DNA of 49,711 bases. Source: a virus. Position 1 is the first letter of the stretch; every line of letters starts with the position of its first letter. Location of the stretch: positions 1 through 49,711 of the IMG/VR virus record IMGVR_UViG_3300030328_003172; one strand, 5' to 3'. The translations under genes and the position numbers were made by a program. Positions 4,382 through 49,711 of this stretch are shown piece after piece. Under the pieces are notes generated by a model that searched no databases, was not told the DNA's origin, and saw only the letters and a program-made list of their open reading frames with translations.

Positions 4382-4834
4382 CTAGTATAAATGCAGTATA
4401 TCCTCTGGATTACTGATAGTTGCGATGATTTCATCATCGTTTAGTATTCGAACTTCAGCACCTTCTATCTTGAAACGAGAACCAGCATATCTTCCAAAGA
4501 TTACCCAATCTCCTTTCTTGCACCAGGGACCAGTTGGGAATCTCCAACTATCTCTGTAAGCTAATGGTCCAACTCGTAGCACGTACGCACACACGGTGGT
4601 CATTTGAATGGTTTCTTGAGTTTTATCAGATAGAAGAATTCCACCTTTGGTTTTTTTAGGACCACTATAAGGTAAAACTAAAATTCTATATCCTGTAGGT
4701 TGAGGAAGTCTATCAAGAGACGTCTTATCAATTGCATGAGGATCTAAATATAGTTTTTTTACTTCTTCTTCTGATTTGTACGCATTAAGCAAACCTTCTT
4801 TATGCTTCGGTACTTCCTTGGTCTGTGTCTTCAT
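4382..4834 (-). CDS. groES: GroES-like co-chaperonin
   Basis: This 150-residue protein has a short N-terminal extension and then a Cpn10 fold. Strands occur at TGYRILVLPY (47-56) and a mobile loop with the hydrophobic GIL tripeptide at KKTKGGILLSD (60-70), which in GroES docks on GroEL. GDWVIFGRYAG (108-118) and the closing EVRILNDDEIIATI follow. GroES proteins cap the host chaperonin and help fold large capsid proteins, as T4 gp31 does. It sits directly upstream of the scaffold and capsid genes, which fits that role. An insertion near residues 91-104 (YRDSWRFPTGPW) departs from host GroES and may alter the dome. Confidence 0.85.
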   Translation of the reverse strand: MKTQTKEVPKHKEGLLNAYKSEEEVKKLYLDPHAIDKTSLDRLPQPTGYRILVLPYSGPKKTKGGILLSDKTQETIQMTTVCAYVLRVGPLAYRDSWRFPTGPWCKKGDWVIFGRYAGSRFKIEGAEVRILNDDEIIATISNPEDILHLY

Positions 4835-25725: not shown

Positions 25726-25936
25726 CTAATTCCATACCTAATTTTGCGTAGTGAATAATTTTATTATATCTTTGCTTGTTAGTTTCTCCAGGCTTTTTGC
25801 GAGTGGCGTATTTAACTATATTAGAATCAATTGTATTTAATTTATTTTTCATGCAGTAAACAACTGGTTGGATAGCATGTTGAACATAATGCTTTCCCCC
25901 TTCTTGATACTCTAAAGCTTTTTTTTTAGACTCCAC
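25709..25936 (-). CDS. DUF3310 protein
   Basis: The protein has about 75 residues. The segments YVQHAIQPVVYCMKNKLN, SNIVKYATRKK and YNKIIHYAKLGMEL match the DUF3310 pattern found near phage replication genes, a family sometimes annotated as a nucleotide-kinase-like helper. I start it at the GTG 25936, with GAAGGG just upstream; the GTG at 25948 is also possible. It overlaps the polymerase gene and the PP-loop gene. Exact function in the family is not known to me. Confidence 0.7.
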   Translation of the reverse strand: MESKKKALEYQEGGKHYVQHAIQPVVYCMKNKLNTIDSNIVKYATRKKPGETNKQRYNKIIHYAKLGMELDDKSN

Positions 25937-26801
25937 ACATCCCTTCACATTCGTTATTAAATAGATCTAATTGGTCCTCTGATTTCTTTTTCTTTTTTAA
26001 TAATTCATTGAAGTCTATATCTCTTAAAGGGATACCTTTTCTGTGTAAAAATCTTTTTATATTAGGGTCTCTGGCTGAATTTCTTATCATATCATCTAAT
26101 TGGCAGGCTTCCTCAAATTCTTCAGGAGTATCTGTTTTAATCTCATTCCAAAGAGTATTATCATGATAGGGACAACCAATACAAGAACTTTTTGCTGGAG
26201 TTCTATAATTTTTTCCTTTGTACCAATCAAGACAAGACTGCCTAGACATTTTGTGATCAATTAAAGGCCAGGTATTTTTTACCCATTTTTCTCTAGAGGG
26301 TTTCATTCTCATTGCTTCATCAGTAGATATTCCTACCCACACTTCTACCCACATATCTCGTGGAAATCGTTGTCTATCTTTTAATCCTATTAAATGTCTT
26401 ATCTTTCTATTGATAGGAGTTATTTTATAATTTCTAGTGCATTGGCGAGGGCCAATACCAATTTTATTTGTTTTAGTATTACGTGCAAAAAAAGGAATAT
26501 GTAGAAATCCTTTTTCTTTTTGAACTTCGTCAATCATATCTTGTTTAATACTGCCTGATTTTAAATGATTCTTTGTGATAATTACAGGGAAATCTAATTG
26601 AGATTTTAACCACTCTAAATGATCATATACTTTGCGCGGCTCCCAACCGGTGTCCGCAAAAATAGCATAATCTGGCTTGTGGCCAAAAGCCCCTTCATTA
26701 GCCATGAGTGCCATAGTGGAAGATTGCACTCCTGCTCCCAGTGATAGAATCCTAAATTTAGGTTCTCCCGAATAATCCCAATCGCCTTTAGCCACTACCA
26801 T
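25926..26801 (-). CDS. PP-loop ATPase (PAPS reductase/DndC-like)
   Basis: This 291-residue protein has the PP-loop SLGAGVQSST (20-29), then DTGWEPRKVYDHLEWL (50-65), and RQCTRNYK (119-126). Cysteines C190, C207 and C210 (CIGC) could hold a metal or iron-sulfur cluster. PP-loop enzymes adenylate a substrate and are used in sulfur transfer to tRNA or DNA and in sulfate reduction. Among phage proteins it is a known family with unclear role. Gene order (helicase, PP-loop, DUF3310, polymerase) points to nucleic-acid modification or nucleotide metabolism. It overlaps the helicase gene. Confidence 0.75.
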   Translation of the reverse strand: MVVAKGDWDYSGEPKFRILSLGAGVQSSTMALMANEGAFGHKPDYAIFADTGWEPRKVYDHLEWLKSQLDFPVIITKNHLKSGSIKQDMIDEVQKEKGFLHIPFFARNTKTNKIGIGPRQCTRNYKITPINRKIRHLIGLKDRQRFPRDMWVEVWVGISTDEAMRMKPSREKWVKNTWPLIDHKMSRQSCLDWYKGKNYRTPAKSSCIGCPYHDNTLWNEIKTDTPEEFEEACQLDDMIRNSARDPNIKRFLHRKGIPLRDIDFNELLKKKKKSEDQLDLFNNECEGMCGV

Positions 26802-31351: not shown

Positions 31352-32776
31352 ATGGTAACTAAATATAATTTTAAGACTGAACCTTTTGCTCATCAAAAAG
31401 ATGCACTTACTGCAAGTTGGGATAAACACAGTTATGCCTTATTTATGGAAATGGGTACTGGTAAAACTAAAGTTTTGTTAGATAATATAGGAGTTTTAAG
31501 ATCACAAAATTTAATTAATGGTGCTTTAATTATTGCTCCTAAATCTGTTTATACTGTGTGGTATAATACTGAAATTCCTAAACATTTAAATATAGAATAT
31601 GACATTTTGTTATGGAAAAGTACCATGGCACGTCAGAAATTAGTAGATTTTATGGAAAAACCATCAATAAAATTAAAAATATTTGTAATAAATGTAGAAG
31701 CTTTTTCTAGTGATAAGGGATCTTTTTGGGCAGAAGAGTTTTGTAAAAGACATACTAATTTAATTGCAGTAGATGAATCTACTTGTGTTAAAAATTATCA
31801 AGCTAAAAGAACAAAAAATATTATTAAATTAAGAAAGTATTCTAATTATAGAAGAATATTATCAGGATTTCCTACTCCTAAAAATCCACTAGATCTATAT
31901 ACTCAATGTAATTTTTTAGATCCTAAACATTTAGGATTTAATTCTATTGTTGCGTTTAGAAATAGGTATTGTCATTTTGAAACTTTGTATTTAAGTGGTA
32001 GACAAATTCAAGTTCCAGTTGGCTTTACAAATTTAGCAGAAATAGAAGCAAAACTAAAAAACTTTGCTTATAGAAAAACTAAAAAAGAATGTTTGGATCT
32101 GCCGGACAAAGTTTACACAAGAAGAACCATAGGGCTAAGTGAAGAACAAAGGTTATTATATGATGATATAAGAACTCAAGCACGAGCCTCTTTAAAAGGC
32201 CAGGAGCTAACAGTAACAAATGTAATTACAGAAATATTAAGGCTTCATCAAATTACTTGTGGATATTTTAAAAGTAGAGAAGGAAATATTCAAAATGTTG
32301 TTAATAAAAGAATAGACGCTTTACTTGAAGTATGTGAAGACACAGATCAAAAAATAATTATTTGGGCTACTTACGTTCATAATATTCAACAGATTAATAG
32401 AGAGCTAATAAAAAAATATGGTGTAGATTCAGTTGTTACTTTTTATGGAGACACTTCTTCAGAAAAAAGAACTGAAGCAATAGAAAGATTTCAAAATGAT
32501 CCTAAATGTAGATTTTTTGTAGGTAATCCTGCTACTGGAGGTATGGGGATAACTTTAACAGCAGCTGGAGTAGTTGTTTACTATTCAAATAGCTATAATG
32601 CAGAGCATCGGGTACAGTCGGAAGATCGTGCACATCGAATTGGTCAAGATCAAAAGGTAACTTACATTGATTTTGTGGCCGAACAAACAATTGATGAAAA
32701 AATATTAAAGGCTCTAGATACAAAATTTAAGCTTTCAGCAAAGACTCTTGGCGAGGTTGTGCGTGATTGGTTTTAA
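31352..32776 (+). CDS. SNF2-family helicase/translocase
   Basis: This 474-residue protein is the only large plus-strand gene. MEMGTGKTK (32-40) is the Walker A motif, AVDESTCVKN (139-148) is a DEST variant of motif II, and LSGFPTPKN (170-178) is motif III. SEDRAHRIGQ (near 430) is motif VI. SNF2 proteins translocate on duplex DNA. In phages they may assist replication fork restart or displacement of proteins. It converges with and overlaps the RecB-like nuclease by 50 nt, which may limit read-through in both directions. Confidence 0.95.
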   Translation: MVTKYNFKTEPFAHQKDALTASWDKHSYALFMEMGTGKTKVLLDNIGVLRSQNLINGALIIAPKSVYTVWYNTEIPKHLNIEYDILLWKSTMARQKLVDFMEKPSIKLKIFVINVEAFSSDKGSFWAEEFCKRHTNLIAVDESTCVKNYQAKRTKNIIKLRKYSNYRRILSGFPTPKNPLDLYTQCNFLDPKHLGFNSIVAFRNRYCHFETLYLSGRQIQVPVGFTNLAEIEAKLKNFAYRKTKKECLDLPDKVYTRRTIGLSEEQRLLYDDIRTQARASLKGQELTVTNVITEILRLHQITCGYFKSREGNIQNVVNKRIDALLEVCEDTDQKIIIWATYVHNIQQINRELIKKYGVDSVVTFYGDTSSEKRTEAIERFQNDPKCRFFVGNPATGGMGITLTAAGVVVYYSNSYNAEHRVQSEDRAHRIGQDQKVTYIDFVAEQTIDEKILKALDTKFKLSAKTLGEVVRDWF

Positions 32777-41635: not shown

Positions 41636-42484
41636 TTACTTAATTTTTTGCCCTTCGTCAATAAACCTTCCCTTATAACTATAGTCTCCATGATGAGTTA
41701 TATAGGCATCTACATTAGCATAAATCTTACCGCCAATGGTTGTCCACTTCTTACAAAAAGCAAAATCTTCACCCATAAAGGTGCCTTTTTCTTGATCAAA
41801 TTCAGTATCCCAAAAGTTCCAAAAGTTCTCTGTTTCTCTCATTTGTTGGTTCAACATAGTTTGTTGTTTAATCTTTAAATGAGGATATTCTTTTCCCATT
41901 TTTTCAAATACTTGACGTTTAATTAACATGAATCCTGCAGGACCTCTTTTAATCTCGGTTATACCATCTTGACAATCTATGTTTTCGGGATCTACAAACG
42001 CCATTGGATAGTAGTATCCGCACTTACTAATATGTCTTCCTGATTGTTGGCTAATATTTTTAGCTTTATCCCAGTCAATAACTTTCATTGGATAGGGAGT
42101 TAAAACTATATCTTTATCTGCTTTTAACATAGTTAAAACAGATGTTTCATCAAATTCTACATCTGTATCTACAAATAACATATGAGTGCATTCAGATTTT
42201 AAAAAAGCTGAAGTACATAGGTTTCTACCTTGCGTTACAATAGAAGAATTAATTAAATGAAATGTAACTGGTATTTTATGTCTTTGTAAAAGTGCTTGTA
42301 GTTCAAGAGTTGCCCTCATGTAATGAATATCAACTCCCCCATGACAAGGAGAAGTAAAAAATAATTTAATTTGCTTATCGTCTTTTTTAGTATCCCAATC
42401 TAATACATCATTTCCTTTATCGGTATTTTGACCAAATATATTTTTTTCGTTTATTATACTTCTTTCATCTATTTTATAACTCAT
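41636..42484 (-). CDS. Glycosyltransferase (GT-A fold)
   Basis: This 282-residue protein has a GT-A core: FFTSPCHGGVDIHYMRATL, then HMLFVDTDVEFDETSVL with the DxD metal motif and GPAGFMLIKRQVFEKMG. GEDFAFCKKWTTIGGKIYAN is the acceptor-side loop. It would transfer a sugar from a nucleotide donor. The gene overlaps the second glycosyltransferase by ATGA, and both sit among tail genes, so the likely target is a virion or host surface molecule. No signal peptide is present. Confidence 0.85.
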   Translation of the reverse strand: MSYKIDERSIINEKNIFGQNTDKGNDVLDWDTKKDDKQIKLFFTSPCHGGVDIHYMRATLELQALLQRHKIPVTFHLINSSIVTQGRNLCTSAFLKSECTHMLFVDTDVEFDETSVLTMLKADKDIVLTPYPMKVIDWDKAKNISQQSGRHISKCGYYYPMAFVDPENIDCQDGITEIKRGPAGFMLIKRQVFEKMGKEYPHLKIKQQTMLNQQMRETENFWNFWDTEFDQEKGTFMGEDFAFCKKWTTIGGKIYANVDAYITHHGDYSYKGRFIDEGQKIK

Positions 42485-43422
42485 GCATATCCTTTTATTT
42501 TAAGTAGTTGATCAAATAAACTTACCCACTCTTTGGCTCTCATGTCCCAATTATAAAAAGTTCTAAAATATTTAGCTTGATCTTTAAGTCTTTGATGTAA
42601 GATAGGCTCGTGATAATTATCTGCCACAAATTCAATTACCGCTTTAAATTTTTTAGCCAGTGTATGCATGTCTGTTTCATAATTTACATAATGAGCATAT
42701 TCAGTGCATGTTTCAAATAAAGCACCAAAATTAGTTACAATAGCCATGTTACCAGCTGCCATTGCTTCCATGGCTGAAATACAAAATGTTTCTTCCCAAA
42801 TAGAAGGATAAGCAAATATCTGACTTTTTTGCATAGCATCTATTACTTCTAGATTAGTTTTATACCCCATATGATTTACATTTTTTAAAGAATCCATTTT
42901 ATCATACATAGGTTTAAATTGTTTATCGTTCTGAAGCTCAAATTCACTACCATAAATTTTAGTAGAGCTATAAACATCGAGAATAATGTCATCTCTTTTT
43001 ATTAATTCCATAGAACCTAATAAAACATTTAACCCTCTCCAAGGAGTAGAGGTATGAATTAATTTAATAGGGTCTCCTTTTTTCCATGTAGGTCTTTCTT
43101 CCCATTTAATATCTGGTAAAGCATTTTTAATTACACAACATTTGTGAGTAGGTAATCCATATGCATACCTAAATTTTTCATAACACCAATGAGAATTAAA
43201 TACATACCAGTCATATTTTCTATGATTTTCTTTTTCAGAAAACCAAGGAGCTATATTAGGTTGATCGTAGGAATTTTTCATCCATAAGATACTAATTTTA
43301 TCTGAGTCTATAGCTTCTTTTTCGGGAACAGAAGTAGTTATTTGAAATTTTTTAAAATAAGACGGATCTACCCTTTTTTGTAGTTCCGCTAATTGTATTT
43401 CTGTACCGCCTTTTGCTTCCAT
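42481..43422 (-). CDS. Glycosyltransferase (GT-B, family 4-like)
   Basis: This 313-residue protein has the GT4-type C-terminal motif EETFCISAMEAMAAGNMAIV, with the E-x7-E pair near residues 215-223, and a donor-binding LIHTSTPWRGLNVLL segment. KGGTEIQLAEL at the N-terminus is a donor/acceptor loop. It is shorter than bacterial GT4 enzymes, missing part of the N-terminal domain, but the catalytic motif is intact. It works next to the GT-A enzyme. Confidence 0.88.
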   Translation of the reverse strand: MEAKGGTEIQLAELQKRVDPSYFKKFQITTSVPEKEAIDSDKISILWMKNSYDQPNIAPWFSEKENHRKYDWYVFNSHWCYEKFRYAYGLPTHKCCVIKNALPDIKWEERPTWKKGDPIKLIHTSTPWRGLNVLLGSMELIKRDDIILDVYSSTKIYGSEFELQNDKQFKPMYDKMDSLKNVNHMGYKTNLEVIDAMQKSQIFAYPSIWEETFCISAMEAMAAGNMAIVTNFGALFETCTEYAHYVNYETDMHTLAKKFKAVIEFVADNYHEPILHQRLKDQAKYFRTFYNWDMRAKEWVSLFDQLLKIKGYA

Positions 43423-43631
43423 TATTTTAACGGCTTTTCTCCAAATACATCAAATCCTTTGGGAATAATAATTTTGACATCTCTTTTTATATCTTTTGGA
43501 TCAGGATTTTCAAGCTTTACTTCGTCTTCGTTTTTATATCTTTTTCCTGTCTTGATATTAGTTATAGTAGTTTGAGCATCACATTGAATAATAGGAACTT
43601 TTTCCCCATTAATTATAGTATATTTTGTCAT
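43422..43631 (-). CDS. Small conserved tail/neck-associated protein
   Basis: The protein has 69 residues, beta-rich with a hydrophilic centre: TTITNIKTGKRYKNEDEVK, then DIKRDVKIIIPKGFDVFG. I associate the I-x-TGK-x-Y-x-(N/D)E pattern and the R-x-V-x-I-x-(V/I)P close with small hypotheticals encoded between tail genes in marine phages. It shares a base with both neighbours. The function is unknown. Confidence 0.6.
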   Translation of the reverse strand: MTKYTIINGEKVPIIQCDAQTTITNIKTGKRYKNEDEVKLENPDPKDIKRDVKIIIPKGFDVFGEKPLK

Positions 43632-43960
43632 TATTTTCTATCTTGTTCTAGTATAGCTACGGTGCCGGTAACCACACCAGTATAGCTACTTGTTAAATTT
43701 AATATATCATTTTCTTCAAATACTTTTACTCCTGTTAATAAATCAGATGATGTACCTGCTCCTAACGTACGTTTAGAAAAATTATAAGTAGCACTAGCTG
43801 AGTTATCAGTAATACTTGCTGTAACACTTACTGTACCACTACTTGAATTATAAGATTGAATACTTTTAATCATAGCCACTGTTTCAGCTGGGCAAGTGTA
43901 AACAGCTACTGGATTTGTAGTTGTTAGATTAAATTGAGCATTAATAAATTTATTTGCCAT
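43631..43960 (-). CDS. Small beta-rich virion protein
   Basis: The protein has 109 residues of beta character: MANKFINAQFNLTTTNPVAV, then MIKSIQSYNSSSGTVSVTAS and VVTGTVAILEQDR. It resembles small head-tail or decoration proteins of marine phages that follow a fibre-like operon. Its start overlaps the stop of the 46-residue basic gene (TAATG). A neck or fibre-binding role is inferred from position. Confidence 0.55.
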   Translation of the reverse strand: MANKFINAQFNLTTTNPVAVYTCPAETVAMIKSIQSYNSSSGTVSVTASITDNSASATYNFSKRTLGAGTSSDLLTGVKVFEENDILNLTSSYTGVVTGTVAILEQDRK

Positions 43961-44100: not shown

Positions 44101-44267
44101 TAATCGTTTAAAAAATAAGACACTGATTCAGTTTCTTCCTTTATATCTTGGGGATAAGTAGAATTAAGAGTTTGTATAATATTATTAATATCTCTGCCAA
44201 ATTGATTTAAATTAGCTGGTTCGTATTGGGGAGTTGCTTGAGAAACAATTTGAGTAATCTTTGCCAT
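44100..44267 (-). CDS. Small conserved protein (55 residues)
   Basis: The ORF reads MAKITQIVSQATPQYEPANL, then FGRDINNIIQTLNSTYPQD, and ends with an EEESVSYFLN-like helix. The DINN-hydrophobic-hydrophobic-Q-x-L helix and the acidic Phe-Leu end match small proteins in the same place of marine phages. It sits between the P22 gp10-like gene and the basic protein, coupled on both sides by TAATG or ATGG overlaps. The function is unknown. Confidence 0.65.
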   Translation of the reverse strand: MAKITQIVSQATPQYEPANLNQFGRDINNIIQTLNSTYPQDIKEETESVSYFLND

Positions 44268-46468
44268 TATCTTCTTCCTCCTACTTGTATATCTGCTCTA
44301 AAGGTACCAAATCTCCATGTTTGTCCAGTTCCGGTATTAGCTATTTTAAAAGATGCAGCTCTTCCTCTAGATCTACAGAACACTTGTTTAGTACTTGTAG
44401 TTACTGTAAACGGACCTGTTATTAAAGGGCCGCTGGCCGACGACGCTCGTGTGTCCGATGGGAAGTCTCTAAGAAAAATAGTTACTTGTGCATCTCCAGT
44501 TTGATTTTTAAAATCAGGAATAAATCTAGAAATACGCATCATATATTCCCCGCTACCTTCTTTATCAATATCAAAGTCTCCTGATTCTATTTGAGCTGGA
44601 ATAGCTGTAGTGGTTCCATTAGTTTTAACTTGATCGTTTCCTGTTTCATGTTCATAGTAAGTAGTAGCTCCGGCTGATATTCCAGAAATACTTCCTTGAG
44701 TCGGACTTTCTGAAGAATCATATGCAGTGGAATAAGGTTTACCATAAACACCTTGATCCACCCAAGTTGTTCTTTTCATTAAAGTTCCTGCATTTGTAGT
44801 CCATACTCCACCTGGGATATTTTGAGAATCTCTAGTATTATAAGTCACCGATCTATCAACAGAAGTAGCACTTCCGCTCGGATAAAACCATGTAATTTCA
44901 TTAAATTTATCATTAACTCCTGCATGTACAATTAATTCGGCGTCATTATTTATATCTCCAAAAACATAATCTTCTACCAAGCATGGTAATTTTTTAACTG
45001 ATGCTCCATCAAAATAAAAGAAACTATCTTCCGACATCCAATAAATAATACCATCTACTTCAATAGCTGCATGCTGAGCAATTAAACCACAATTAGTTCC
45101 TACTTGTTCAAAACCAAAGGTAAAAGGAGCCCCAATAAATCTCATGGTAAACATAGCTGTATCAGTCCAAATATAGTTACCGTTTCTTCCTCTTAAGGTA
45201 CCTATTATTTTAGATCCATCAGCAAGTCTTTGTGTACCAGCTGTGTTAGTTGCCGTAGGAGTATAGTCATTGATATCTTCTTGATCGGAGAATCTAATAA
45301 ACATATCATCTTGAGAAGAAGTCGTTCCTATAGTTGTTTCAGTTCCAAAAAAACATAAGTGTCTATCAGGTGTAGATACTAACATATCTCTCGATGCCGT
45401 AGGTGCATTAGTTACTAATGTAGCTCTATTTGGATTCGAAATAGCACCTGCAGCTGAAGGATCCCATTCTACAACTACACTATTATAAATTAAAGCTATA
45501 AGTTTTTGACCATAATTTGTAAGTTTCCATTGACCCGGATCTATAATTACTCCAGCAGCTGTATTAGATCCCCACCCTGTGTAATTAGTAGCATCTTGAA
45601 CTGCACTACCATCAGCATGGGTAACATCGCTCGTTCCTCCTTGTCCTCTTGATATTCCTGAAATAGTATTGGTTGTAGTATTATTAGAGGTATAAGTAAC
45701 TAGTTCTGCGGTAGATCCGCTTCCAATTAATAAAGTTCCTGTAGCCGGCATAGAAGATGATGACGCTAAAACAACTGAGCTAGCTCCTGAAGCAAATGTA
45801 CCACTATTATTAATAGTAGTAGTTGCAGTAGTGGTTGTACCTCCAAATTGTCCTGTACCAAATCCATAACCAGGTAATTGAAACGCTGGTCCTACAACGT
45901 AATAAACGTCTAAGGTTGCGGTTCCAGTAGTTGAAAATGCTGTTCCTGTTTCGTTAGCAGCCATTTGAATAGTAAAAGTAGTGGTAGTAGGAGTACTTTT
46001 TACTTCAAAAGTCTTCTCAAAATCAGAATCTGTAAAACTTGAAGTTCCTGGAATTAAACTTACATTGGAAAATACTACTAAATCTCCTACGCTTAAACTA
46101 TGAGCACCGGTACATGTAACGGTTACTACATTAGAAGCTGAACTAGTTGTAAAACAATTAGTCATGCCTGATTGTTGTAAAGAAGCATTTAAAGGATGAA
46201 TGTCATAAAAACTTCCTTCATAATAAATATATAAAATTTTATCTGTGCCGATAGCGGCATATCGATTGCCTGATAAATCAAACCAAGTATGTTGATCTCG
46301 TGCTACCCCTACTAAAGAATCAGCTCCTAATTGAGCCCATCCTCCTATTTTTTCTGGTAATCCATATCTAAATCTAACATACTGGCCCCCGGTCCATCGT
46401 CCTTCAGCACCGGTTTCAGTTACTTGTTTATCAAATCCAGGAATTAATTGTACTTTTGCTAGTGCCAT
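44267..46468 (-). CDS. Tail/neck protein, P22 gp10-like
   Basis: This 733-residue protein starts MALAKVQLIPGFDKQVTETG and has a RWTGGQYVRFRYGLPEKIGG segment, the recognisable opening of P22 gp10-like DNA-stabilisation or head-closure proteins. The rest is a long series of beta strands with Ser/Thr/Gly inserts (residues 100-300), then NGNYIWTDTAMFTMRFIGAP and a repeat of propeller-like blades. It would seal the portal channel or connect tail parts. A promoter with TATAAT lies 7 nt before the ATG. Confidence 0.7.
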   Translation of the reverse strand: MALAKVQLIPGFDKQVTETGAEGRWTGGQYVRFRYGLPEKIGGWAQLGADSLVGVARDQHTWFDLSGNRYAAIGTDKILYIYYEGSFYDIHPLNASLQQSGMTNCFTTSSASNVVTVTCTGAHSLSVGDLVVFSNVSLIPGTSSFTDSDFEKTFEVKSTPTTTTFTIQMAANETGTAFSTTGTATLDVYYVVGPAFQLPGYGFGTGQFGGTTTTATTTINNSGTFASGASSVVLASSSSMPATGTLLIGSGSTAELVTYTSNNTTTNTISGISRGQGGTSDVTHADGSAVQDATNYTGWGSNTAAGVIIDPGQWKLTNYGQKLIALIYNSVVVEWDPSAAGAISNPNRATLVTNAPTASRDMLVSTPDRHLCFFGTETTIGTTSSQDDMFIRFSDQEDINDYTPTATNTAGTQRLADGSKIIGTLRGRNGNYIWTDTAMFTMRFIGAPFTFGFEQVGTNCGLIAQHAAIEVDGIIYWMSEDSFFYFDGASVKKLPCLVEDYVFGDINNDAELIVHAGVNDKFNEITWFYPSGSATSVDRSVTYNTRDSQNIPGGVWTTNAGTLMKRTTWVDQGVYGKPYSTAYDSSESPTQGSISGISAGATTYYEHETGNDQVKTNGTTTAIPAQIESGDFDIDKEGSGEYMMRISRFIPDFKNQTGDAQVTIFLRDFPSDTRASSASGPLITGPFTVTTSTKQVFCRSRGRAASFKIANTGTGQTWRFGTFRADIQVGGRR

Positions 46469-46576: not shown

Positions 46577-47212
46577 TTACTTTTTAGGGTAAGTAAAGCC
46601 TTTAAACCAGGAAGGTATACCTAATAAAACTCTTTTATCCAACACATTTTCCTTGGCAAGTTTAGATCCTTTTTTATTATAATGTAAAAATACTTGACCA
46701 CAGTCTGTGCCCGTAAATTCTTCTCTCCAATGTTCCAGATCACATCCAGAATATATTAACATATCTCCTGGTTCTAATATAACTTTAATACCAGCTTGAC
46801 CTTTTTTACCTGTTGGGTCTAAATAAATAGGCCATTCATCTCCCCCTAGGTTCAAGGTAGTAGATATCTCGCAAGAGTATCTATCTTTATGTCTAGCTAA
46901 TACGTCTCCTTTTTTATAAATTCTTGCATAAGAATAAGTTTCACTTAACTTTAAACTAGTATGTTTTTCCATTACAGGCTTTACTTTCTGTAACAAAGTT
47001 TCCATAACTAAATCTGCATAATGTGAATAAGTATTAGGTACTTGATCGTCATTCCATACGCCCCAGTACTCTGTAAAAGGAGATATATATTTTTGATCAA
47101 ATAAAAATCTTGCTACTTTTCTTTTATTTAAAAAATAAGAATAAGCAAAATCCGCTAATTCTTTTGAAATTGCATTTTTTAAGATGCTATATTTATTTTT
47201 TTTGAACGACAT
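46577..47212 (-). CDS. 2-oxoglutarate/Fe(II) oxygenase 4
   Basis: This 211-residue protein has a prolyl-4-hydroxylase-like core: ARHKDRYSCEISTTLNL with H108-x-D110 as the iron ligands, then GDMLIYSGCDLEHWREEF with the distal H161. GQVFLHYN may place the 2-oxoglutarate end. It hydroxylates a protein or small molecule using 2-oxoglutarate and iron. It is the last of four such genes in one operon. The C-terminal tail (SWFKGFTYPKK) is basic. Confidence 0.82.
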   Translation of the reverse strand: MSFKKNKYSILKNAISKELADFAYSYFLNKRKVARFLFDQKYISPFTEYWGVWNDDQVPNTYSHYADLVMETLLQKVKPVMEKHTSLKLSETYSYARIYKKGDVLARHKDRYSCEISTTLNLGGDEWPIYLDPTGKKGQAGIKVILEPGDMLIYSGCDLEHWREEFTGTDCGQVFLHYNKKGSKLAKENVLDKRVLLGIPSWFKGFTYPKK

Positions 47213-47930
47213 TTAATACTCCTTTTGGTATAGCTTGGCAGTTCCAATGTATAAATCTAAAGGGTTCATATCCCATATCTAACACATATTGATGAGGCAT
47301 GTAAGAGGGAAAAAATATTATTCTCCCAGGCTTTACTTCATAATTAATTTGATAACTTGCATAAGTTATTTTAGATCTATCTTTTTCAGGTAAAAGATTC
47401 ATCATATTTCCTGGTCTTGGATCCTCAAATAAAGGTCTAGATGTCTTACTACTAGCTTTTAAAAAATAAAAACCAGATATATGACCATTCCAATGAGTGT
47501 GTAATGTATGATGTCCACCACCTTGTTTAGCAAATTCTTGCACCCACATTTCTGTAGTAAATAACTGATGATTATCCATGTCAAAACCCATTTCTACCAA
47601 TAAATTATGGGCTGTAGCACCTATATAATTTTGAAGATCTAAAAAAGCAGGGTCTCCTATTAAAGTTGTTGAATGAAAGACCTGTCCCAAATCTCCTTTA
47701 TCTCCAAACTTTTTATTTCTTTCATCGGTATCTTTTTTTAAATTTTTCTTTGCTGCTTCAATATAGGAATTAGAAGCTTTATTTAAATCTTTAACAAAGG
47801 AAGGTTCATCAGCAAACCATATAGGACAAGGAAATAAATCTTCTCGAGTCAATTGTTTAGGAAATGATTTGGCACTTCCACAGGATATCTTATCCAATTC
47901 TTTTTTAGTTTTTATTTTCTTTTTTTTCAT
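47193..47930 (-). CDS. 2-oxoglutarate/Fe(II) oxygenase 3 (2OG-FeII_Oxy_5-like)
   Basis: This 245-residue protein has the GGGHHTLHTHWNGHISGFYF segment (137-156) with the first iron ligands H144/H146, then GRIIFFPSYMPHQYV with H213, and RFIHWN. This is the pattern of the 2OG-FeII_Oxy_5 family. It is preceded by a Lys-rich tail. It overlaps oxygenase 2 by 26 nt at the 5' side and oxygenase 4 by 20 nt. The substrate is unknown. The position in an oxygenase series next to a fibre gene suggests virion targets. Confidence 0.85.
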   Translation of the reverse strand: MKKKKIKTKKELDKISCGSAKSFPKQLTREDLFPCPIWFADEPSFVKDLNKASNSYIEAAKKNLKKDTDERNKKFGDKGDLGQVFHSTTLIGDPAFLDLQNYIGATAHNLLVEMGFDMDNHQLFTTEMWVQEFAKQGGGHHTLHTHWNGHISGFYFLKASSKTSRPLFEDPRPGNMMNLLPEKDRSKITYASYQINYEVKPGRIIFFPSYMPHQYVLDMGYEPFRFIHWNCQAIPKGVLNVVQKK

Positions 47931-48435
47931 TTGCGCCTTTCTTTTTATACCAACAGGGAATAGTGTATCTATTACCTCCTCTTATTTCTGAAACTCCATG
48001 CTCATATTTTAACCCATCATATATTATCATACGACCGGTTTGAGGAACTACTCTACTTCCATCGGCAAAATAAGTATGTCCTTCAACAAAATCTTCATTT
48101 AAATATAAAACTGAAGTAAGACCTAAGGGACTAGTTCTATATTTTCTATCATAATGCATGACATGATAAGATCCCTCTACATGTTTTTTAAGCTCGCTTT
48201 TTTCTATATTAATATCTTTTCCGTAATAAGTCTGCACTATTTTTTCTATTCTTTTTAATATATTAGTTAAATAAGAGTCTTTTAATTCAGTGTCATATAT
48301 AGGGTAGGCAGACGGAGAATTTATATCCATCCAATTAGAAGGAAATTTAGCTGCTTTATCTTTATTTTTATTAAATAATTTAATGAGGTCTTTGCTTTCT
48401 TTTTTATTCACCACTTTTTCTATGATCATAATCAT
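47905..48435 (-). CDS. 2-oxoglutarate/Fe(II) oxygenase 2 (P4H-like)
   Basis: This 176-residue protein has the compact prolyl-hydroxylase core: HVMHYDRKYRTSPLGLTSVL with H94-x-D96, GHTYFADGSRVVPQTGRMII, then YEHGVSEIRGGNRYTIPCWY with H146 and R156 as the 2-oxoglutarate anchor. It lacks any signal peptide and so acts in the cytoplasm. It has an extended basic C-terminus (ANEKKENK). It is co-transcribed with three other oxygenases. Confidence 0.85.
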   Translation of the reverse strand: MIMIIEKVVNKKESKDLIKLFNKNKDKAAKFPSNWMDINSPSAYPIYDTELKDSYLTNILKRIEKIVQTYYGKDINIEKSELKKHVEGSYHVMHYDRKYRTSPLGLTSVLYLNEDFVEGHTYFADGSRVVPQTGRMIIYDGLKYEHGVSEIRGGNRYTIPCWYKKKGANEKKENKN

Positions 48436-49068
48436 TTACTTAAATGGCCATCCTAAATTCCAAATAACCAAGCTATGTCTAGATCCTTTGGTGACTGGAC
48501 ATACTCTATGCCAAACAAATGAAGGAAATACAACTAAAGATCCTTTAGGTAATATTTCTTTACATTTACGTACGTTTCTTTTTTTATCAGGATCATGATT
48601 TCTAAAATCAAATTCTAATTCCCCTCCTTTATAGTCTACTCCTCCTTCAGACAGACTAACTGTAACAGATAATTTTCTAATTTTTCCATTTGAAGGGTCC
48701 CCTTCTTGTTTTAGATAAGGTCTATCCCAACTGTCACAATGCCAATCATAATATTGGCTTTTATTATATTTAGTGAACTGACAGCTTTCGGAAAAATCCC
48801 ATTGAAAATTCCATCCTGCATCAGCATTAGCTCGATGAACATAGGGTTGGATTTCTTTATATATCCACCTATCATTCATCCAAACTATGTTTGAATCTCT
48901 TTTAGTTTTTAAATTTTTAATTTGAGATTTATTTAATTTTTTAGGATCGCCAAATCCACCCGTAACAGCCATTTGATCTTGTAATTGTTTTCCATAACGA
49001 ACAATATCATCACAAAGCCTAGCTGGAATTGCTCTTTGAAAATACCAATAACAATTAAATAAGTTCAT
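48436..49068 (-). CDS. 2-oxoglutarate/Fe(II) oxygenase 1 (PKHD-type)
   Basis: This 210-residue protein has YDWHCDSWDRPY with H110-x-D112, GGVDYKGGELEFDF, then GSLVVFPSFVWHRVCPVTKG with H187 and SRHSLVIWNLG with R197. This is a PKHD-type hydroxylase. It lies immediately after the fibre gene, with a 45-nt gap and no strong ribosome site. It may modify the fibre next to it or a host product. The family usually targets proteins or small molecules. Confidence 0.87.
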   Translation of the reverse strand: MNLFNCYWYFQRAIPARLCDDIVRYGKQLQDQMAVTGGFGDPKKLNKSQIKNLKTKRDSNIVWMNDRWIYKEIQPYVHRANADAGWNFQWDFSESCQFTKYNKSQYYDWHCDSWDRPYLKQEGDPSNGKIRKLSVTVSLSEGGVDYKGGELEFDFRNHDPDKKRNVRKCKEILPKGSLVVFPSFVWHRVCPVTKGSRHSLVIWNLGWPFK

Positions 49069-49113
49069 CTGTTCTTACTACATATCTTAATTTAAATAGA
49101 GAGTAAATAAAAA

Positions 49114-49711
49114 TTAGTCTATTTGGATAGTTCCGGAGACAGTAAATGTAGTTGTTTTTGTACTTCCTGGAGTACATGCTGTAGTATTAGATGGAGGTCC
49201 TACTGTTATTTCAGGTGCTTTTGCTGCAGGATATCTTAAATAAACAATTCCTGATCCACCCGAGCCTGCACAAGATGCACTTTCACCGTTAGATCCACCA
49301 CCACCGCCTCTGTTTACAGTTCCGTTATTTCCTGGTCCTGCTGAAGAACCACCTGTTCCAGGTACAGCAGGTGCACCAGTTCCGCAAGGAGATCCTCCTC
49401 CCTGGGCTCCTGGATTATATGCTGCTCCACCTCCACCACCAGCGTAAGATAAAGCTGAACCTGAAATTGATACGGGTATACCAACACCACCAGCACCTCC
49501 GGCTCCACCAGTTCCTGAAGAAGATGCACCAACACCACCTCTACCACCACCTCCTGATGATGCGTAGTTTCCTGGTCCTGCTCCTCCACCATCACTTCCT
49601 TGAGGTCCTCCTTCAGATACAGGTACGGGAGGGGTATTACCAGATGCACCATATTGTTGGTGACTACCTCCACCTCCTGATCCACCAGCAGTATTACTAA
49701 TTCCACCTCCA
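49114..49711 (-). CDS. Glycine-rich fibre/adhesin C-terminus (5' end missing)
   Basis: The last 198 residues are visible. The region is rich in Gly with Ser, Ala and Pro between the runs (GGGGRGGVG, GPGNNG, PGAQGGG), then SGGSGIVYLRYPAAKAPEIT and a beta-rich tail ending TFTVSGTIQID. This resembles glycine-rich adhesins and fibres that recognise the host, with a conserved GGSGIV-x-x-RYP close. The 5' end lies off the window. Pro and Gly in alternating repeats would be candidate substrates for the oxygenases downstream. Confidence 0.8.
   Translation of the reverse strand, partial: GGGISNTAGGSGGGGSHQQYGASGNTPPVPVSEGGPQGSDGGGAGPGNYASSGGGGRGGVGASSSGTGGAGGAGGVGIPVSISGSALSYAGGGGGAAYNPGAQGGGSPCGTGAPAVPGTGGSSAGPGNNGTVNRGGGGGSNGESASCAGSGGSGIVYLRYPAAKAPEITVGPPSNTTACTPGSTKTTTFTVSGTIQID

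Follow-up and report, generated by a model that had tools for sequence, protein, structure and literature searches.

A conserved block of 2-oxoglutarate oxygenase genes is linked to glycine- and proline-rich fibres in marine phages

Results

A block of oxygenase genes behind a Gly/Pro-rich fibre

The viral sequence IMGVR_UViG_3300030328_003172 from IMG/VR, analyzed over its positions 1 to 49,711 (the whole 49,711-nucleotide stretch is referred to as the window), carries at its right end, on the minus strand, the end of a Gly/Pro-rich tail-fibre gene followed by four 2-oxoglutarate-Fe(II) (2OG) oxygenase genes, Oxy4, Oxy3, Oxy2 and Oxy1. Many marine phages have at least three different oxygenase genes behind a Gly-rich fibre, and the fibres linked to oxygenases are about four times richer in proline than those that are not. 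Because of this proline excess, the arrangement suggests that the phages hydroxylate prolines of their own fibre.

The fibre open reading frame (ORF; 49711–49114; phrog_2295, 6e-17) is truncated, with its 5' end beyond the contig, and represents the C-terminal part of the candidate substrate. It contains NTPPVP...GGPQG and TVGPPS, and proline makes up 8.6% of its Gly-rich part. Its stop codon lies 45 bp from Oxy4 (48436–49068, 210 residues; PF13640, 6.7e-16; phrog_61), which is followed without a gap (0 bp) by Oxy3 (47905–48435, 176 residues; PF13640, 9.4e-8). Oxy3 overlaps Oxy2 (47193–47930, 245 residues; 2OG-FeII_Oxy_5, PF13759, 5.4e-14; phrog_81) by 26 bp, and Oxy2 overlaps Oxy1 (46577–47212, 211 residues; phrog_2954) by 20 bp. 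Four consecutive oxygenase genes directly behind a glycine-rich fibre, as described in the initial annotation of this DNA, are thus confirmed at 46577–49068. By DNA, the nearest isolate over this end of the window is Pelagibacter phage HTVC033P, which was reported in a study of HMO-2011-type phages (PMC9038755). In this isolate gp61, gp60 and gp58 are the counterparts of Oxy4, Oxy2 and Oxy1, and a 580-residue Gly-rich protein, gp62, is encoded directly upstream.

The linkage is reciprocal

The usual gene order, taken over non-redundant IMG/VR loci, is fibre-Oxy4-Oxy2-Oxy1-phrog_3287. Oxy4-Oxy2-Oxy1 is the conserved core, while Oxy3 is optional and present in a minority. Gly-rich ORFs were counted within 3 kb of the oxygenase block on either side. 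All 85 close loci had one upstream, versus 1 of 45 downstream. The same asymmetry was seen in remote loci, whether seeded with Oxy1 (15/17 upstream, 5/17 downstream) or with Oxy4 (21/26 and 0/7), giving 36/43 upstream and 5/24 downstream when pooled. A test limited to the closest neighbor encoding 150 residues or more scored remote loci low (4/31 and 16/42); it was replaced by the distance test because small genes separate the fibre from the block in these loci, such as a 167-residue gene in HTVC023P and a 188-residue gene in S-SM1.

Isolates with the arrangement include the podoviral HTVC033P and HTVC023P, the T4-like Mosig and cyanophage S-SM1. The block of HTVC023P is preceded by four tandem Gly-rich fibres, and in S-SM1 a 350-residue Gly-rich gene stands ahead of about nine oxygenase-like genes. 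Since these phages differ in morphology and host, synteny within merely one lineage is argued against. The tandem fibres of HTVC023P, gp59–gp62 (locus L204, 5204–10900), with up to 11% proline in their Gly-rich parts, may reflect adhesin duplication and diversification.

The converse search was independent of the oxygenases. A DNA pattern for the linker between the two fibre domains (E-L-N-K-A-x-G-V-W) was used to fetch viral contigs, and in 69 of 70 loci with at least 700 bp downstream an oxygenase was among the next three genes; the sole exception does not resemble a fibre. The linkage of oxygenases and fibres is reciprocal.

Oxygenase-linked fibres carry a proline signature

A search with a generic pattern marking where any Gly-rich domain ends (GGSGIV..RY) yielded 118 fibre loci, many of which lack oxygenases. 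Contigs with an oxygenase (n = 36) were compared with those in which no oxygenase occurs over at least 4 kb downstream (n = 24). Proline made up 7.0% of the Gly-rich region in the former versus 1.5% in the latter (area under the curve 0.95, p = 3e-9) and was the strongest discriminator among the 20 residues. The motif GN.PP..P.QG occurred in 27/36 linked and 0/24 unlinked fibres. Loci assigned to neither group that carry this motif all have less than 4 kb of downstream DNA; the contig of one of them, L557, breaks off within a gene of a type found ahead of Oxy4 in related loci. Repeating the comparison per locus over all Gly-rich ORFs gave 6.9% versus 2.5% (p = 2e-12), and cysteine was likewise enriched in the linked fibres.

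The signature is confined to the fibre, as proline in other genes of the same contigs did not differ (3.8 versus 4.2%, p = 0.16). Base composition is not its cause, because the oxygenase-bearing contigs are lower in GC (0.37 versus 0.45), which would reduce proline; in a regression that included GC, the oxygenase term retained t = 6.2. Among isolates, the Gly-rich parts contain 8–11% proline in HTVC023P, 6–7% in HTVC033P, 6% in Mosig, 6.5% in S-SM1 and 4% in HTVC008M.

All four enzymes have conserved 2OG-oxygenase metal sites

Oxy1, Oxy3 and Oxy4 carry the H-x-D...H metal triad, and Oxy2 an H-x-H...H variant. The ligands are invariant across relatives: H108/D110/H161 of Oxy1 in 44 diverse sequences, H144/H146/H213 of Oxy2 in 42, H110/D112/H187 plus R197 of Oxy4 in 46, and H94/H146 plus R156 of Oxy3 in 9. 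The intact H-x-D or H-x-H pairs with a distal His noted in the initial annotation are therefore conserved features of these families. In this superfamily the 2OG carboxylate is bound by a basic residue some ten positions beyond the distal His. Such a residue is conserved at +10 in Oxy4 (R197) and Oxy3 (R156). In Oxy2 an Arg at +11 is not invariant across the wide alignment, and Oxy1 has no Arg or Lys about ten residues after the distal His, but rather invariant Q173 and H177, and R163 at +2.

Profile comparison with the PDB placed Oxy4 nearest PKHD hydroxylases (3dkq, 2.5e-13; PiuC, ~5e-11), with a weaker match to the prolyl 4-hydroxylase (P4H) 5c5t (7e-5). Oxy3 matched Bacillus P4H (3itq/5hv0, ~5e-12), and Oxy2 matched the uncharacterized 3bvc (1.7e-19) and 2rg4, both of which align with the same H-x-H motif. 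Oxy1 had no Pfam match at E ≤ 0.1 and was assigned from its AlphaFold model (mean predicted local distance difference test score, pLDDT, 93.8). The best PDB fold matches of this model were two entries of Pseudomonas P4H (4j25, and 4iw3 in complex with EF-Tu), followed closely by Dictyostelium PHD and human PHD2 (template modeling score ~0.55–0.6), and 50 of the 50 best matches listed were 2OG-oxygenase-fold entries. By sequence, and for Oxy1 by predicted fold, all four are thus 2OG oxygenases; Oxy3 and Oxy4 resemble prolyl hydroxylases or PKHD enzymes in their profiles, as Oxy1 does in its modeled fold. The four are distinct families, as had been proposed: Oxy4 and Oxy3 are linked at 95% probability in profile comparison, whereas Oxy4 and Oxy1 are not (6%) and the Oxy4–Oxy2 link is a single 27-column stretch. 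A single-sequence scan of bacterial genomes with Oxy1 found matches in no more than four contigs, of which three carry Pelagibacter or Pelagibacteraceae in their titles.

Two database labels conflict with these assignments. PHROGs names the Oxy1 family, phrog_2954, "ferrochelatase", as does the pelagiphage literature. We rejected this identity, given the lack of a Pfam match and the uniform 2OG-oxygenase fold matches; a PDB profile search with Oxy1 found no ferrochelatase chain at E ≤ 1. The label is probably wrong. Work using this label reports that every "ferrochelatase" gene of HTVC023P-type pelagiphages has a 2OG-Fe(II) oxygenase gene as its neighbor (PMC9599517) and that "ferrochelatases" are seasonally enriched (PMC11561400). 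As sequence and fold both indicate a 2OG oxygenase, this partner gene probably belongs to the same cassette as a further member. Published conclusions on heme and iron drawn from auxiliary metabolic genes (AMGs) of pelagiphages and cyanophages rest on the phrog_2954 label. Oxy3, in turn, matches phrog_2297 and phrog_274 (L206, 14618–15633; L207, 11511–12023), labeled "DNA endonuclease (V)". An endonuclease V identity is not supported, with Oxy3 matching PF13640 and prolyl hydroxylases, and this label also looks wrong.

The fibre is Gly-rich but not collagen-like in structure

Full-length relatives of the fibre are about 600 residues long and consist of two Gly-rich domains (PF21722, Gly_rich_2) joined by a conserved linker. 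Against a cut-off of 24.3 bits, PF21722 scored 88 bits (1.1e-24) in the nearest full-length relative (L199), 67 in HTVC023P gp62 and 50 in Mosig; the truncated fragment in the window fell below the curated cut-off. C-terminal fibre halves are 40–50% identical to the first sequence, while close oxygenases are ~80% identical. With the Gly-rich fibre as query, tblastn against isolate phages aligned only the non-repetitive part, to long-tail-fibre distal subunits of Vibrio phages.

The initial annotation had likened the system to collagen modification, a comparison that stands in its logic and fails in structure. Glycine autocorrelation is raised at lags 1–3 only, with none at 6 or 9, and the longest Gly-X-Y run among the Gly-rich genes listed from 8 example loci is 7. 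A collagen fold was rejected, since the glycines are clustered without Gly-X-Y periodicity. No solved homologue of the fibre family was found by sequence. The AlphaFold model of the C-terminal half (pLDDT 83) is mostly extended coil between short strands. Plausible fold matches of this model are confined to the Bxb1 tail tip and the Gly-rich domains of ALK/LTK and are weak and not significant; what they resemble is a Gly-rich bundle, not the helix of collagen. The ALK/LTK domains are built of polyglycine-II helices. Proline and hydroxyproline favor polyproline-II geometry, which is related to polyglycine-II, and a stabilizing role for hydroxyproline in the fibre is therefore plausible by analogy.

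Discussion

A candidate fibre-hydroxylation cassette

Judged together, these results make it slightly more probable than its negation that the block is a virion-maturation cassette that hydroxylates the neighboring fibre, with at least one of its enzymes a prolyl hydroxylase. The oxygenase genes, packed behind the fibre gene, would probably be expressed with it late in infection. For hydroxylation of the fibre their products would draw on O2, Fe(II) and 2-oxoglutarate from the host, and Oxy3 or Oxy4, or Oxy1 to judge from its structure, may be the prolyl hydroxylase. Likely targets would be proline-containing turns such as GNTPPxSPPQGN between polyglycine-II-like strands, where hydroxyproline could stiffen the adhesin, lock the geometry of the turn or alter the receptor-binding surface. 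A broader proposal, which we advance tentatively and with somewhat less than even confidence, is that a dedicated multi-enzyme cassette in several marine phage families matures a polyglycine-II adhesin with hydroxyproline, and perhaps other hydroxylated residues, as a prokaryotic-virus counterpart of collagen processing.

Several observations weigh against fibre hydroxylation. The loci are not independent, since related phages are counted repeatedly. Grouping by shared genes left 5 oxygenase-positive versus 10–12 negative lineages (p ~0.04–0.05), and when any shared gene sufficed for grouping, the loci merged into a single main component. With prolines masked, the tree built from the Gly-rich domain was too poorly resolved to count independent gains, and a tree-based independent-pair test gave one supported pair. 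Lineage-corrected support for the link between oxygenases and fibre proline is thus marginal. There are also exceptions: three loci (L559, L501 and L538) have oxygenases and Pro-poor fibres, L495 has a Pro-rich fibre without a visible oxygenase within 3.2 kb, and in HTVC008M the Gly-rich gene lies a few genes past the block on the opposite strand. The available portion of the S-SCSM1 virion proteome report names no oxygenase among non-structural virion proteins and mentions no hydroxylation (PMC9602691), a point limited by the fact that the enzyme need not be packaged. Finally, no reason is apparent why modification of a single type of residue should take three to twelve different oxygenases. 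Fibre hydroxylation as envisaged in the initial annotation is, as a hypothesis, supported by the reciprocal synteny in several phage groups and by the proline enrichment specific to linked fibres, with limited phylogenetic independence.

The multiplicity of enzymes would be accommodated if the oxygenases modified the fibre or another virion protein mainly at residues other than proline (e.g., Lys, Asn/Asp, His or Cys), one residue or protein per enzyme, with the proline motif architectural for another reason. The reciprocal linkage fits such a scheme, as do the several enzyme families in one block, the enrichment of cysteine in linked fibres and the uncharacterized specificity of the Oxy2 family. 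However, no other residue discriminates as well as proline, and the similarity to prolyl hydroxylases extends to two or three of the enzymes, which leaves this explanation unlikely, if a serious contender. The published view (PMC9602691, PMC9599517, PMC11561400) is that the genes are AMGs; they would act on host metabolism, such as 2-oxoglutarate/nitrogen balance or iron, and sit beside the fibre merely as a common accessory insertion site. In its favor, S-SCSM1 carries 24 genes of this kind, and copies in cyanophages sometimes adjoin uvsW/uvsY instead (PMC2984593). An insertion hot spot would not be expected to yield the near-invariant and reciprocal fibre-Oxy4-Oxy2-Oxy1 order, nor a proline signature confined to the fibre, and the supposed iron partner is itself a 2OG oxygenase by predicted structure; we consider a purely metabolic role improbable.

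Two further explanations appear very improbable. The location of Syn9 oxygenase genes near repair genes led to the proposal of action on nucleic acid (PMC2984593), in DNA repair or AlkB/TET-like base modification, and the PHROG label "DNA endonuclease V" on Oxy3-like proteins points the same way. Yet that label conflicts with profile matches to prolyl hydroxylases, only PF13640 or PF13759 matched above curated cut-offs, and the genes are located among structural genes. Alternatively, the enzymes could modify host surface polymers or receptors that match the receptor of the neighboring fibre, for example in superinfection exclusion, which would explain why they travel with a fast-evolving fibre. 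Here, the enzymes are conserved while the fibre diversifies, and no proline signature in the fibre would be predicted, so we give this as little weight as action on nucleic acid.

Relation to known systems

The hydroxylases of PBCV-1 and Mimivirus act on collagen-like or Pro-Ala repeats. Mimivirus reportedly encodes a collagen lysyl hydroxylase, L230, a 2OG enzyme with a viral collagen-like substrate. Comparable too is the P4H of chlorovirus PBCV-1 (Eriksson 1999, as cited in PMC9301287), again a 2OG hydroxylase encoded by a virus, whose substrates are viral and Pro-rich or collagen-like; the same article mentions P4H genes beside viral collagen in general terms. Both enzymes differ from the present case in belonging to large viruses of eukaryotes, with no multi-enzyme block beside a phage fibre. 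Among bacterial enzymes, the P4H acting on EF-Tu in Pseudomonas (4iw3) and Bacillus P4H (3itq, 5hv0) are the best fold match of Oxy1 and profile match of Oxy3, respectively, but identity to Oxy1 is only 11–13% and the substrates differ. The best profile matches of Oxy4, PKHD-type PiuC (9ghl, 9qn0) and Sbal_3634 (3dkq), belong to cells, not viruses, and are associated with iron uptake. The gp38-type Gly-rich adhesins of phages form a polyglycine-II sandwich. The present fibre family matches PF21722 and differs from such adhesins in its Pro-rich turns and linked oxygenases.

The closest systems are the oxygenase clusters of pelagiphages and T4-like cyanophages (HTVC023P-type, HTVC008M, S-SCSM1), which have the same gene families and the same adjacency of phrog_2954 to a 2OG oxygenase. 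Such clusters are well documented as AMGs (PMC9599517, PMC11561400, PMC9602691), with a heme/iron partner; here, that partner is a 2OG oxygenase by predicted structure, and a Gly/Pro-rich fibre goes with the block. The literature searched, which left most subscription journals and preprints outside its scope, contained no link between the cluster and an adjacent fibre or its proline, and nothing specific on phage hydroxyproline or hydroxylated fibres. The initial annotation had called the system undescribed. This does not hold for the oxygenase cassette, already known as AMGs, and holds for its coupling to a Gly/Pro fibre as far as the literature searched goes.

2OG-Fe(II) oxygenases are among the most frequent AMGs of marine phages and have no demonstrated role. 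Were the cassette to modify the adhesin, a large class of supposed metabolic genes would become virion-maturation genes, and the abundance of 2OG oxygenases in ocean phages, so far filed as metabolic, would be explained by a hydroxylation cassette. Seasonal and ecological readings of the "ferrochelatase" gene would then have to be reconsidered, and the assembly of infectious ocean phages would involve oxygen and iron.

Neighboring genes and other observations

Oxy1 is followed by the virion structural gene phrog_3287 (44267–46468), the usual next gene, then by two small genes, including the conserved p109 (43631–43960, phrog_1276), and a glycosyltransferase pair, all on the minus strand. The pair consists of a group 1 glycosyltransferase (42481–43422; PF00534, phrog_2170) and an Anp1-like protein (41636–42484; weak Anp1, phrog_1574). 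The initial annotation correctly placed two such genes about 3 kb downstream (~3.2 kb), and its suggestion that glycosylation follows hydroxylation did not hold up. The pair is an optional insert outside the conserved core, present in 5/30 loci with at least 6 kb downstream, and the retrieved part of HTVC033P showed no glycosyltransferase relative; a conserved partnership with glycosylation was rejected. Where present, the two-gene module is inserted after p109 (the window, L164, L184, L120 and L204).

Between the genes for the terminase subunits of HTVC008M lie gp78–gp79 (L205, 8525–10484), which encode a further 2OG oxygenase along with a tryptophan halogenase and are opposite to the main oxygenase block. 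The remainder of the window encodes terminase, portal, major head protein, DNA polymerase, primase and helicases. A co-chaperonin GroES-like protein (4382–4834, phrog_3188) lies amid the head genes, and a phosphoadenosine phosphosulfate reductase family gene (25926–26801, phrog_424) adjoins the DNA polymerase gene. No large plus-strand gene was seen other than that of an SNF2-type helicase (31352–32776); the remaining genes with family matches are on the minus strand.

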